A DNA stretch of 64,000 nt, from assembly GCF_028713855.1 (NCBI RefSeq), contig NZ_JAQTNN010000004.1:62001-126000 (forward strand), written 5' to 3'. The translations under genes were made by a program, and so were the position numbers. Source of the stretch: Sulfuricurvum sp. Its GTDB lineage: Bacteria > Campylobacterota > Campylobacteria > Campylobacterales > Sulfurimonadaceae. The notes beneath the pieces were generated by a model. That model saw nothing but the letters and a program-made list of their open reading frames with translations. It had not been told where the DNA came from and made no database searches. Of this stretch, positions 12,598 to 17,805 are shown piece by piece; position 1 is the first letter of the stretch; the number at the start of each line of letters is the position of its first letter.

Positions 12598-13950
12598 TTA
12601 AACGCCCTCAAGAATCATCGCCTCCGCCACCCGTTTAAAGGCGGCAATATTTGCTCCGTCTACGAAGTTTCGCTCAACTGCGTACTCTTTAGCGGTCAAT
12701 GCAACCCGTTTATAAATCTGACGCATCAGTTCATCGAGTTTACGATCCACTTTGTCAAAATCCCATTTCTCCATCGAAGCGTTTTGAGACATTTCAAACT
12801 CACTCACGGCAACCCCTCCGGCATTGGATGCTTTACCCGGAGCGAACAAAATACCCTCCCTTTGCAGAAGTTCGATTGCTTCGGGTTCAGTCGGCATATT
12901 AGCCCCTTCTACTACTGCGACACATCCATTGTCAAGCAATTGTTGTGCATCAGATACAGTAAGTTCATTTTGTGTTGCACATGGGAAGGCAGCAAAACAC
13001 GGAACTTGCCATACTGCATGAGCATCTTTTGGATAATCTGCTTTTTTTGTATAGATCGCACTTGGAAATTGACGCTTATACTCTTCTAGAGAATGCCTCT
13101 TTCCCTCATCTTTCAAATGCCTTAACAATGCCAAATCGATACCGCGCGAATCATATATCGTTCCATCACTATCACTGCACGTGACAACAATGGCACCCAA
13201 CTGTTGAAGTTTCTCAATCGTATGGATTGCGACATTTCCCGCACCGCTAACCGTGCATACTTTTCCTTCTAGAGATTCTTGTAACTCCTGTGCCAACATT
13301 TCGCGGGCGAAATAAACAACACCGTATCCAGTGGCCTGAGGTCGCATCAATGAACCGCCAAACGCATAGGGCTTACCGCTGAGAACGCCGTCATAATTTC
13401 GGGTAATATGTTTGTATTCTCCAAACAGATAGCCGATTTCTCGGCTCCCTACCCCGATATCACCGGCTGGAACATCGACACGCGCTCCGATGTATTGATG
13501 AAGCCCTCGCATAAAAGCATGGCAAAACTTCATAATCTCAAAATCGCTCTTTCCTTTGGGATCAAAATCGCTCCCCCCTTTGGCTCCGCCGATCGGCAGA
13601 CCCGTCAGAGAATTTTTGAAAATCTGCTCAAATGCTAAAAATTTGAGTACTCCCGTTGTCACACTTGGGTGAAATCGCAACCCCCCTTTATAGGGTCCCA
13701 GAGAATTATTAAACTGGATACGGTAGCCCTTGTTAATATGGACATGATTGTTATCATCGAGCCATTGAACTTTAAACTGGATAATACGATCCGGGGTTAC
13801 GAGACGTTCCAAAATGGCAAACTGTTCATAGCGCGGATCGCTTTTGACGATCGGTTCTAACGAAGTAAATACTTCGCTCACTGCCTGAAAAAATGTATCA
13901 TCATTCACACACTTGGATTTTTCGAGATTAGCTAAGATTTTTTCGATCAA
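12598..13950 (-). CDS. gdhA: NADP-type glutamate dehydrogenase
   Basis: About 450 residues. Catalyses reductive amination of 2-oxoglutarate with ammonium to glutamate. The family signature around the catalytic lysine is clear (LPIGGAKGGSDFDPKGKS), followed by the Rossmann nucleotide domain (VSGAGNVAIHTIEKL). Start: a GTG at 13977 is possible, but TTG at 13948-13950 has AAGGGG six bases upstream and removes the overlap with the preceding gene. The cell therefore has both this route and glutamine synthetase-dependent GOGAT (gltBD at 29916-35748) for ammonium assimilation. Confidence 0.95.
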   Translation of the reverse strand: MIEKILANLEKSKCVNDDTFFQAVSEVFTSLEPIVKSDPRYEQFAILERLVTPDRIIQFKVQWLDDNNHVHINKGYRIQFNNSLGPYKGGLRFHPSVTTGVLKFLAFEQIFKNSLTGLPIGGAKGGSDFDPKGKSDFEIMKFCHAFMRGLHQYIGARVDVPAGDIGVGSREIGYLFGEYKHITRNYDGVLSGKPYAFGGSLMRPQATGYGVVYFAREMLAQELQESLEGKVCTVSGAGNVAIHTIEKLQQLGAIVVTCSDSDGTIYDSRGIDLALLRHLKDEGKRHSLEEYKRQFPSAIYTKKADYPKDAHAVWQVPCFAAFPCATQNELTVSDAQQLLDNGCVAVVEGANMPTEPEAIELLQREGILFAPGKASNAGGVAVSEFEMSQNASMEKWDFDKVDRKLDELMRQIYKRVALTAKEYAVERNFVDGANIAAFKRVAEAMILEGV

Positions 13951-13964
13951 AGAGATCCCCTTTT

Positions 13965-15059
13965 TTAAAGATAACACTCTATTTTATTTTTTAACCGCAT
14001 TGCCAAAGAGAGGTGTGCCTCTTTCAACGCATCATAAATCATTTGTGCTTCAAGTGCATATTTTTTCTTTTTTGCTTCATCCCAATGTGCAGGAACATTC
14101 GAAAGGTTACTAATACGATCTGCTAATTTAACGGATTGAACCGCTTTAGGCTGTTGCAGCAATTTTTTCAGACTCTCTTGCATTTGTTCTTCTTTTGATG
14201 AAAGAGATTTATTTTTGGTCAATGCGGACACCCCATGAGCGACCTGTTCTCCGAATTCCGCTTCAATCTCTTCAAAAAGCGTAGCCGTATCTTCAATCGT
14301 ATCATGAAGAAGCGCGCAGCTAATTGCTAAATCAAGTTCATCACTGTTGAGTTCAGAAGATGCTGCAATAATCTCTGAAGCTACCGAAACAATGTGAGCG
14401 AGATAAGGATAGCCCATCGGTGTTTTTTGCTCCCCGTGAGCACGCGCGGCAAATTCCAATACTTTTTTATACTTTTCGATATCAAATTTCGGTTCAGTTG
14501 CCGTGTCCAAAAATTCTATAATAGTCTGAAAATGGCGTTCGATCCCTTGAAATCCATGATCGCCACCCTCTTCGATAATCATTTGTGCACGAGACAATTT
14601 TTCAACTGCTTCGGTGTAATCAAGTACTTCATCGGCAGTTTGAACCATTAAAAGAGCATTCTCTCCGCTGTATTCCTTCACTTCATGCTTTTTGAGCATT
14701 TCTAAATGGGAAATGTTCCATTCATAGGTACTTTGATCGTAAAAATTGGGAGGAAATCCAAGTGCCCGGCTAAGTGTTTTATAGGGATAAATGGCCGGAT
14801 TAATCAGTACGCACGGAAGATTGTATTTATAAGAGAGGGACATTGCATAATATCCCCCCAAAGAAGAACCGACAAGAGAGACATTCTCTGTCATTTGAAA
14901 ACTTTCTATTAACTCTTCTAACGTTTGAATAGCTAAATCGGGAATTGTTGACAGAGACGGGGCAATAAAATGTATATTTTTGCGTTTACAAAAATCTCTT
15001 AAAGCGACCGCTTTTGATCCATTGCCATGACTTCCGAATCCGTGAATATAGATAATCAT
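13965..15059 (-). CDS. fusion of YqiA-type esterase and MESH1/RelA-type HD hydrolase
   Basis: 364 residues with two complete enzyme modules. Residues 1-185 are an alpha/beta hydrolase of the YqiA (UPF0227) type: IYIHGFGSHGNGSKA near the start, nucleophile Ser66 in GSSLGG, acid Asp143 (ADEVLDY) and His168 (GGDHGF). Residues 195-345 are an HD domain like MESH1 and the SpoT hydrolase: His208, His222, HDTIED at 252-257, and Asp314 in KLADRISNL. That HD family removes pyrophosphate from ppGpp or dephosphorylates NADPH in characterised members. All expected catalytic residues of both domains are visible, so both may be active. The substrate link between them is unknown. Confidence 0.85.
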   Translation of the reverse strand: MIIYIHGFGSHGNGSKAVALRDFCKRKNIHFIAPSLSTIPDLAIQTLEELIESFQMTENVSLVGSSLGGYYAMSLSYKYNLPCVLINPAIYPYKTLSRALGFPPNFYDQSTYEWNISHLEMLKKHEVKEYSGENALLMVQTADEVLDYTEAVEKLSRAQMIIEEGGDHGFQGIERHFQTIIEFLDTATEPKFDIEKYKKVLEFAARAHGEQKTPMGYPYLAHIVSVASEIIAASSELNSDELDLAISCALLHDTIEDTATLFEEIEAEFGEQVAHGVSALTKNKSLSSKEEQMQESLKKLLQQPKAVQSVKLADRISNLSNVPAHWDEAKKKKYALEAQMIYDALKEAHLSLAMRLKNKIECYL

Positions 15060-15075: not shown

Positions 15076-17805
15076 TTATTTTAACTCACCCCAGTGATTA
15101 CCAATATGCATTGAGGTTTTCAGCGGAACGCGGAGTTCTAAAATACTCTCCATCGTCTCGACAAAGCGCGCGGCGTAAACCTCTGCCACATCCTCATCCA
15201 CCTCAAAAATAAGTTCATCGTGGATTTGTAATAACATTCGGGCGCGTAATCCCTCAGCGCGGATCATCGTATCGATCTTGTTCATCGAAAGTTTGATGAG
15301 ATCGGAGGCGGAGCCTTGGAATACGGTGTTAACCGATTCGCGCTCGTATGCCGCTTTGAGCATCGGGGTGGCGGAGGAAAAATCAAAATAACGGCGGCGA
15401 TGTAACAGCGTTTCTACATACCCCATCTCTTTTGCCTGCTCGACAATGCCGCTAAAATACCCTTTGACACTCGGAAAGGTCTCGAAATAACGCTCGATGA
15501 TCTCTTTTGCCTCTTTAGTGGTGATTCCGAGAGTATCGGAGAGCTTTTTTTGCCCCATTCCATATAGTAGACCAAAATTGACCGTCTTAGCGATGTTACG
15601 CTTACGCGGTGCATCCTCGGCACCAAAAAGCGCTATCGCCGTTTGCATGTGAATGTCATGCCCCTCATTAAAGGCGTTGACTAAAACACTATCCTCGCTA
15701 AAATGGGCGAGGAGACGAAGCTCGATTTGCGAATAGTCGATCCCGATCAGTTTTTTCCCCTTCGGTGCAACAAACGCTTCGCGGATACGCATCCCCAGAG
15801 CCGTTTTGACGGGGATATTTTGGAGGTTCGGATTTTTGGAACTGAGCCGACCCGTTGCCGTACCCGTCTGAACAAACGAGGTATAGATGCGGGATGAGGG
15901 ATCATTTTGTGCCAATGCGATCAACGGTTCGATATAGGTCGAATAGAGCTTATGATACTCACGGTATTGGAGCAACATCGTAATAACAGCGTGTTCCTCT
16001 TTAAGCCCTTCTAAAACCTGTTCATCCGTGCTGTATCCGGTTTTGGTTTTCTTACCGTGTGCCAGCCCCAGCGTTTCAAACAGAATTACTCCAAGCTGTT
16101 TAGGTGAATTGAGATTAAATACCGTACCACACGCAGTGTGGATTTGCTCAGTAAGGGTGGCGATCTCTAACGCTACCTCTTTTTTAAAGAGTTCCAATAC
16201 CGACGTATCGACTGCTATCCCCTCTCGCTCCATTCCAAGTAATGTGATAGTAAAAGGAAACTCAACGTTAAATGCTTCATCCAGAGCGTCCTGCCCACCC
16301 TTTAAAAGGAGCTGTTCTCTAAGGACTTCATACAAACGATAAGTGATATAGGCATCTTCTCCGGCGTATTTGCATGCATCTTCGATCGCGACCGAAGCGA
16401 AGTTCTCCCCTTTTTTCACCGTGTCTTTAAAATGGATCATCTCGTGGCTCAAAAGATTTTGAGCCAGATTATCCATAGAAAGTGATCGTGAAGAGTCCGT
16501 AAGCCATGCCATCACCATAGAATCAGCATAAATAGTGAGTCGATCAACCCCTAAAAAACGGGTGACGAAATGAAGATCAAATTTGATATTATGACCTATA
16601 ACACGACGCTCAAAAATAGCGTTTATAGCACTTTTAGCCGCATTATGGGTGACTTGATTCCCTACGCCCAAATAGCTGTGAGCCAACGGCACGTAATAGC
16701 CTGTTTTATCGTCACTGCTGAAACTAAAACCGACCAAATGGTCTTTCGTAGGATCGAGTCCTGTCGTTTCAGTATCAAATGCGACTAATGCATCCTGAGG
16801 AATCGAAGCAATAAGACGCTCCAACGCTTCGTCTGTATCAATCAACAGTGTGCATCCTTCACTGCTCTCACATTTCGGAAGATCAAGGGGTTTAGTTTCT
16901 GCCACGCGCGCAGTTGAAGTACTTTGCGATTCCTCAAACAACGCTTTAGCTTTCAACGTACGAAGAACTGCGTTCATCTCATAATGAACCAAATCATCGT
17001 AAATCGGCAAAAACGGATTCTCAAAGTGCATTGCAAATTCATTGAAATCAAGCGTCTCAAATACATTGTCCCGTAAGCTTACCAGTTCACGTGAGCGAAA
17101 CGCATCATCCCGATACGTTTCCAGTAAACCTTTGATTCGAGGCGGTGTCACCTCACCCAGACGTGCATACATCTCATCGAGCGTCCCGAACTGAGTAAGC
17201 AGTTTCTGAGCTGTTACTTTACCGATCCCTTTAACTCCGGGAACATTATCCGCCGTATCTCCGATAAGAGCTTGATAGTCGATAAACTGTTTGGGATGAA
17301 CGCCGTACTTTTCATCGCAATGGCGCTCGTTCATCACCTTTTTACTTATCGCATCGACGAGGACGACCACATCGTCTTCGATAAGCTGATACAGGTCCTT
17401 ATCGTGTGAAACCACACGGACGATATGTCCCTGAGAACGTGCATGACGAACAACCGACGCGATCATATCGTCGGCTTCGTATCCGCTTTGCATAAGCGAT
17501 TTATACCCCATTTTGTCAATCCACTCAATCGCAATCGGAAGCTGCATAATCAGCTCTTCGGGTGCAGGAGAACGGTTGGCTTTATACTGAGGATCGATCT
17601 CGGAACGGAAACTTGGGCCTTTGGCATCGAGGGCAAAAATCAAATAATCGCTGCTGTGATCTTTATGTAAAGAGGCTATAAAATTGATAAATCCTGTCAA
17701 CAGACCAGTAGGAAAACCCTGTTTATTTTTGAGGGGAGGAAGCGCGTAAAAACTGCGGAAAAAAAATCCGAATGTATCGATTACAGTAACGGTTTGTTGA
17801 GCCAT
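15076..17805 (-). CDS. polA: DNA polymerase I
   Basis: 909 residues in three modules: an N-terminal 5'-3' exonuclease/flap nuclease domain (GIGKVTAQKLL helix-hairpin-helix near 195), a 3'-5' exonuclease domain with its acidic residues apparently intact (FDTETTGLDP, GHNIKFDLHF, YAGEDAYITYRLY), and a family A polymerase domain (IDYSQIELRLLAH motif A, KTVNFGLLYG O-helix, QIHDELIFEV motif C). It fills gaps and removes RNA primers during replication and repair. It begins 9 bases after the HDOD gene ends and uvrA lies just upstream, so repair genes cluster here. Confidence 0.97.
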   Translation of the reverse strand: MAQQTVTVIDTFGFFFRSFYALPPLKNKQGFPTGLLTGFINFIASLHKDHSSDYLIFALDAKGPSFRSEIDPQYKANRSPAPEELIMQLPIAIEWIDKMGYKSLMQSGYEADDMIASVVRHARSQGHIVRVVSHDKDLYQLIEDDVVVLVDAISKKVMNERHCDEKYGVHPKQFIDYQALIGDTADNVPGVKGIGKVTAQKLLTQFGTLDEMYARLGEVTPPRIKGLLETYRDDAFRSRELVSLRDNVFETLDFNEFAMHFENPFLPIYDDLVHYEMNAVLRTLKAKALFEESQSTSTARVAETKPLDLPKCESSEGCTLLIDTDEALERLIASIPQDALVAFDTETTGLDPTKDHLVGFSFSSDDKTGYYVPLAHSYLGVGNQVTHNAAKSAINAIFERRVIGHNIKFDLHFVTRFLGVDRLTIYADSMVMAWLTDSSRSLSMDNLAQNLLSHEMIHFKDTVKKGENFASVAIEDACKYAGEDAYITYRLYEVLREQLLLKGGQDALDEAFNVEFPFTITLLGMEREGIAVDTSVLELFKKEVALEIATLTEQIHTACGTVFNLNSPKQLGVILFETLGLAHGKKTKTGYSTDEQVLEGLKEEHAVITMLLQYREYHKLYSTYIEPLIALAQNDPSSRIYTSFVQTGTATGRLSSKNPNLQNIPVKTALGMRIREAFVAPKGKKLIGIDYSQIELRLLAHFSEDSVLVNAFNEGHDIHMQTAIALFGAEDAPRKRNIAKTVNFGLLYGMGQKKLSDTLGITTKEAKEIIERYFETFPSVKGYFSGIVEQAKEMGYVETLLHRRRYFDFSSATPMLKAAYERESVNTVFQGSASDLIKLSMNKIDTMIRAEGLRARMLLQIHDELIFEVDEDVAEVYAARFVETMESILELRVPLKTSMHIGNHWGELK

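Follow-up and report, generated by a model that had tools for sequence, protein, structure and literature searches.

The polA-yqiA-gdhA locus

The window is a 64,000-nucleotide stretch of DNA from a genome (G000) of the sulfur-oxidising bacterium Sulfuricurvum. On its minus strand an ORF running from 15059 to 13965 encodes a protein of 364 amino acids, in which a UPF0227/YqiA serine esterase is followed by an SAH, an HD hydrolase of the RSH type that has no synthetase domain. The plus strand over the same coordinates is interrupted by 14 stops. A fusion of an esterase with an HD hydrolase at 13965-15059 had been proposed in an earlier note on this DNA; Pfam, NCBIfam and PDB matches bear out the proposal and place the gene on the minus strand. 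The locus comprises:

12598..13953, minus strand: gdhA (glutamate dehydrogenase), the downstream neighbour, with a probable TTG start at 13953
13965..15059, minus strand: the YqiA-SAH fusion gene, 364 aa, with an ATG start and an AGAGGG ribosome site upstream
13968..14489, minus strand: C-terminal SAH HD domain, residues ~191-364, PA0431/PbcSpo2-like, HD1 arginine absent
14487..14501, minus strand: junction ATEPK, residues 187-191, linking the final YqiA helix to the start of the SAH, located by alignment with the unfused locus of G013
14502..15059, minus strand: N-terminal UPF0227/YqiA serine esterase domain, residues 1-186, triad Ser66-Asp143-His168, with profile and PDB matches
15076..17805, minus strand: polA (DNA polymerase I), the upstream neighbour; sister genomes share this gene order

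The polA stop and the start of the fusion gene are separated by 16 bases, and gdhA lies directly after the fusion. The start of gdhA is probably the TTG at 13953, since an alternative GTG at 13977 (window 12598-13977) would overlap the fusion stop and the ATG of the sister gene in G013 aligns to the TTG. In G013, which is also a Sulfuricurvum, the slot contains polA, an unfused yqiA (191 aa) and gdhA, and its DNA aligns with the window to the left and right of the SAH segment; comparable flanks to the polA-yqiA-gdhA slot are present in G035 and G011. The alignment with G013 also reveals that the ancestral yqiA stop codon is no longer present at the fusion junction. Both halves of the protein are of full length with ~5 residues between them, and the SAH half begins where stand-alone SAHs begin. 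The simplest history suggested by these alignments is that an SAH gene landed between yqiA and gdhA, with loss of the yqiA stop. The GC content of the YqiA and SAH halves is 38.5% and 39.2%, respectively, compared with 45-46% in polA and gdhA. An assembly error or chimaera is ruled out by the independent fusions described below and by the SAH-free locus of the sister genome G013. The fusion is real; its architecture is new and its component families are known. The earlier note knew of no described link between an esterase and a (p)ppGpp/NADPH hydrolase, and a literature search likewise found no paper linking UPF0227 or YqiA with alarmone hydrolases.

Identity of the two enzyme halves

Residues 1-184 match Pfam UPF0227 (PF05728; E 1.2e-40) over model positions 1-186 of 187, and the score of 139.9 bits exceeds the gathering cut-off of 21 across the whole domain. 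The NCBIfam YqiA model also matches the N-terminal half, with a score under the cut-off of that full-length model, and YqiA structures (4fle/9bi7) match residues 2-189 by sequence. Ser66, Asp143 and His168 are invariant across 19 YqiA domains, and the nucleophile elbow, G-S-S66-L-G, conforms to GxSxG. Other UPF0227 proteins have been demonstrated experimentally to be esterases (PMC13230378; PMC11145796). The YqiA esterases of Yersinia (4FLE) and Klebsiella (9BI7) resemble the N-terminal domain along its entire length and have the same Ser-Asp-His triad, but are stand-alone proteins of ~190 aa, whereas the YqiA in the window carries an SAH domain. The Escherichia coli enzyme (UniProt P0A8Z7) is reported to be active on palmitoyl-CoA and pNP-butyrate (Kuznetsova 2005); the literature search found no paper on the palmitoyl-CoA activity. 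The fusion supplies the sole YqiA of genome G000, which has no second copy.

The C-terminal half matches Pfam HD_4 over residues 201-345 (E 9.6e-18; 64.8 bits against a cut-off of 27.2) and the hydrolase part of the NCBIfam model spoT_relA, under the cut-off of that full-length model. By sequence, the PA0431 SAH (6yvc/6z3n) matches residues 193-363 with 68 of 170 alignment positions identical (40%). In the structure model the SAH domain has a pLDDT of ~90, and its top PDB match is again 6yvc (TM 0.89 by target, rmsd 1.8). The model was built on an alignment (A4) in which YqiA is represented by two rows only, so that neither the YqiA half (pLDDT 33-80) nor the domain interface can be interpreted. 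Both sequence and fold rank the nearest solved relatives in the order PA0431, MESH1 and long RSHs; SAH and RSH structures are the only HD matches, and the MESH1-PAPS complex 9chy is among the fold matches. Residues 195-345 thus score as an SAH, and a different HD family for this segment is ruled out by the Pfam, sequence and fold matches.

His222, His252-Asp253, Glu256-Asp257 and Asp314 are the predicted metal and water ligands, so that the metal-binding residues and the Glu-Asp pair of motifs HD2, HD3, HD4 and HD6 are all in place. Among 19 SAH domains His208, His222, His252-Asp253, Glu256 and Asp314 are invariant, and Asp257 is replaced only in the two f4 sequences. The two catalytic sets listed in the earlier note (Ser66-Asp143-His168; His208, His222, His252-Asp253, Glu256-Asp257, Asp314) were correct in every residue and are conserved in relatives. 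Judged by these residues, both the esterase and the SAH of the fusion are very probably active enzymes.

The description of the HD half as 'MESH1/SpoT-type' needs amendment: it is an HD hydrolase of the RSH type, but its closest relative is a PA0431-type SAH (PbcSpo2) and the HD1 motif is absent. The stand-alone PaSAH/PA0431 (6YVC, 6Z3N) resembles it over the whole length at 40% identity, in fold, in the His/Asp and Glu-Asp catalytic residues and in the absence of the HD1 arginine; in the window the domain is instead C-terminal to an esterase in one chain. Human and Drosophila MESH1 (3NR1, 3NQW, 5VXA) share the HD superfamily, the catalytic residues and the fold (TM 0.83 by target). They are, however, only ~30% identical, lack an esterase and contain two extra residues, with the HD1 arginine, at which the domain in the window displays a two-residue gap; metazoan MESH1 is not the closest relative. 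The absence of HD1 has been reported for the SAH classes PbcSpo, PbcSpo2 and DivSpo (PMC5954133), and PA0431, which is classed as PbcSpo2, prefers adenine alarmones 5-10-fold, (p)ppApp over (p)ppGpp (PMC10434055). The HD half is probably a PA0431-like SAH of the PbcSpo2 class, PA0431 being its nearest relative among solved SAHs, in an assignment made by best match only. The long RSH of the same genome (contig 10, ~720 aa) includes an HD hydrolase domain from this superfamily, at 37% identity, but also a synthetase domain, which the fusion does not have, and the tree clearly sets the genus's long RSHs apart on a branch of their own (100/99).

Distribution and origins of the fusion

An SAH is encoded by 3 of the 41 Sulfuricurvum genomes, all three of which have the fusion, and by 6 of 228 genomes of the family to which the window belongs. 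In G003 the homologue is a full-length YqiA-SAH protein of 367 aa (52% identity) that adjoins a separate HD-domain gene. G005 encodes on contig 5 (L101 1471-2949) a 492-aa protein in which a FliG_C domain (E 2.5e-14) lies between the esterase and the SAH, and on contig 6 (L010) a second copy with a 98% identical YqiA, a FliG_C-like spacer and a shortened SAH. In G532, from another genus of the family (L105 880-2379), the reading frame is interrupted between YqiA and the SAH that comes after it, reflecting either a pseudogene or a sequencing error. Separate fusions are thus present in two other Sulfuricurvum genomes, G003 and G005, and a broken one in G532, and the gene in the window is not an isolated assembly error.

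Phylogenetic analyses indicate that these fusions do not share one origin. In the YqiA tree the domain from the window groups with Sulfuricurvum orthologues that are not fused (100/97); G003 and G005 pair at another position and G532 lies at yet another. A single clade for all four fusions was rejected (p-AU 2.75e-9), as was a clade of the window with G003/G005 when G532 was left out (p-AU 0.0144). The SAH tree, in which the G532 sequence is partial (115 columns), rejects the grouping of all four (p-AU 0.009) and of G003/G005 with G532 (0.0023), but not that of the window with G003/G005 (p-AU 0.12). From these trees the YqiA-SAH fusion appears to have arisen at least twice and, in view of the YqiA tree, more probably three times. 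The remaining alternative is that the domains fused once and that the YqiA half was later exchanged.

SAH and YqiA also occur together when they are not fused. Among 397 genomes sampled from the class, an SAH is encoded in 41, a YqiA in 120 and both in 40; the exception is G244, which has an SAH and no UPF0227 match at all. In family f9 YqiA is present in 54 of 55 genomes with an SAH, compared with 18 of the 49 without. The respective Fisher p values of 3e-22 and 1e-12 ignore shared ancestry, by which the counts are inflated, and within one genus the association is weak (p 0.04). In the family of the window YqiA is found in five of the six SAH genomes (p 0.04), four of these having the fusion. 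Co-occurrence provides moderate backing for a functional link between SAH and YqiA.

Both domains are also found with other partners. A different N-terminal domain ('WAYLNDIEGC...'), which has no Pfam match, precedes the same SAH in G005 and in the majority of f20 genomes (for example L064 1486-2460 and L102 1141-2529); the G005 form, of 462 aa, has an extra C-terminal domain. YqiA is joined to an unnamed C-terminal domain ('FKHT.KVKGVGF...'), also with no Pfam match, in G015 (L011 1501-2961) and G309 (L089 1189-2037). Other YqiA fusions in G005 and G015 are housed in large same-strand arrays of variable genes (L034, L040, L041), which also contain LRR, MORN-like, DUF1566-like, metallophosphatase and exonuclease genes.

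Possible roles of the fused enzymes

The substrates described for SAHs are (p)ppGpp, (p)ppApp and NADPH (PMC9765508, PMC10434055, PMC5954133). The SAHs examined so far form dimers. MESH1 cleaves the 3'-phosphate of CoA and of its thioesters, and the authors of that study suggest that bacterial SAHs may do so too (PMC13221220). Candidate cellular substrates of orphan bacterial SAHs are alarmones and NADPH, to which CoA was added in 2026 as a possible one. G000 encodes a single long RSH and lacks a small alarmone synthetase, which makes the SAH of the fusion such an orphan; the single PF04607 match in G000 is the long RSH. In G003, G005 and G532, too, the only synthetase domain belongs to the long RSH. 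A fusion that recurs with a partner outside alarmone metabolism provides a rare handle both on the SAH substrate and on the physiological substrate of YqiA.

The two halves of the protein are probably, although by no means certainly, linked in function, and there is an even chance that they form a bifunctional enzyme, a YqiA-type esterase or thioesterase with an SAH, that works on linked metabolites. This proposal builds on what the sequence establishes, namely the folds of the two halves, their complete sets of catalytic residues, the ancestral polA-yqiA-gdhA slot and the recurrence of the fusion. The SAH half, of the Mn2+-dependent PA0431 (PbcSpo2) type, would strip the 3'-(pyro)phosphate from purine nucleotides such as (p)ppApp, (p)ppGpp and possibly CoA, and the esterase half would take an acyl group off a substrate of the same metabolic neighbourhood. 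One transcript would provide one dose of both activities, and an intermediate may be channelled. In its most concrete version, acyl-CoA would be converted to CoA by the YqiA half and CoA to dephospho-CoA by the SAH half. We infer that acyl-CoA/CoA is a plausible shared substrate line from the CoA activity of MESH1 and the reported activity of E. coli YqiA on palmitoyl-CoA. Such dismantling of CoA by a single chain, with YqiA cleaving acyl-CoA thioesters and the SAH dephosphorylating CoA or acyl-CoA at the 3' position, is put forward tentatively and at rather low probability. If it is true, the recurrent fusion would be a genomic trace of bacterial SAHs acting on CoA, whether in place of alarmones or in addition to them. 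The joint pathway raised in the earlier note is favoured, as a hypothesis, by recurrent fusion and co-occurrence.

A reading with a lesser, yet appreciable, chance of being correct is that the fusion is incidental, an SAH gene having come to lie behind yqiA and the stop having been lost, with shared expression as the only coupling. The slot without an SAH in G013, the comparable flanks in G035 and G011 and the junction of ~5 residues between two full-length halves are all consistent with this. Furthermore, as other fusions sit in variable arrays and each domain has unrelated partners (YqiA in G015 and G309; SAH in the 462-aa protein of G005 and in f20 genomes), YqiA and SAH may both be easily fused. 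The same partners have, however, been joined at least twice, and probably three times, always with YqiA in front, and the SAH is nearly always accompanied by YqiA; both observations exceed the expectation for random joining.

An antidote function for the SAH half, of the kind proposed for other SAHs, is unlikely; the SAH would remove the (p)ppApp or (p)ppGpp that a toxic small synthetase produces, and the esterase would be a passenger. The preference of PA0431-type SAHs for (p)ppApp (PMC10434055), the frequent presence of bacterial SAHs in the same genomes as toxic synthetases (PMC9765508) and the location of relatives of the fusion in variable gene arrays are all in keeping with such a role. 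Against it, the long RSH provides the sole synthetase domain of G000, G003, G005 and G532, neither genome nor locus containing the small alarmone synthetase that a toxin-antidote pair would need, and there is no PADLOC family match to a known defence system. A pair within the genome is ruled out by the lack of a small synthetase; an incoming toxin from competitors is a possible target. Least probable is the earlier suggestion of alarmone control of the esterase, in which the SAH domain would be mainly a switch that acts upon binding (p)ppGpp or (p)ppApp. Alarmones are bound tightly by SAH domains, XccSAH displaying a Km of tens of micromolar (PMC9765508), but one would expect a pure sensor to have lost some of its catalytic residues, whereas here all are kept and are conserved in relatives. 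The five-residue junction is silent on allostery, and the interface in the model is unreliable (YqiA half pLDDT 33-80). With these residues retained, the SAH domain resembles an enzyme, and there is no specific support for alarmone control of the esterase.

With respect to mobile elements, a phage origin was rejected, as full-protein patterns detected no fusion in IMG/VR and no record in the phage and plasmid collections covers 80% of the fusion protein in one place. The neighbours of SAH genes differ between groups. In f9 the stand-alone SAH gene (L043, L046, L047, L055) follows an RNase_T/DnaQ-like exonuclease gene by 0-4 bases, together with a trpF gene, and does not follow yqiA, a point against functional linkage of SAH and YqiA; exonuclease genes are also present within the G005 array. 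A calcineurin-like (ApaH-like) phosphoesterase gene adjoins the SAH gene in G487 (L103 576-2031) and the gene for the 462-aa SAH protein in G005 (L102 422-2529).
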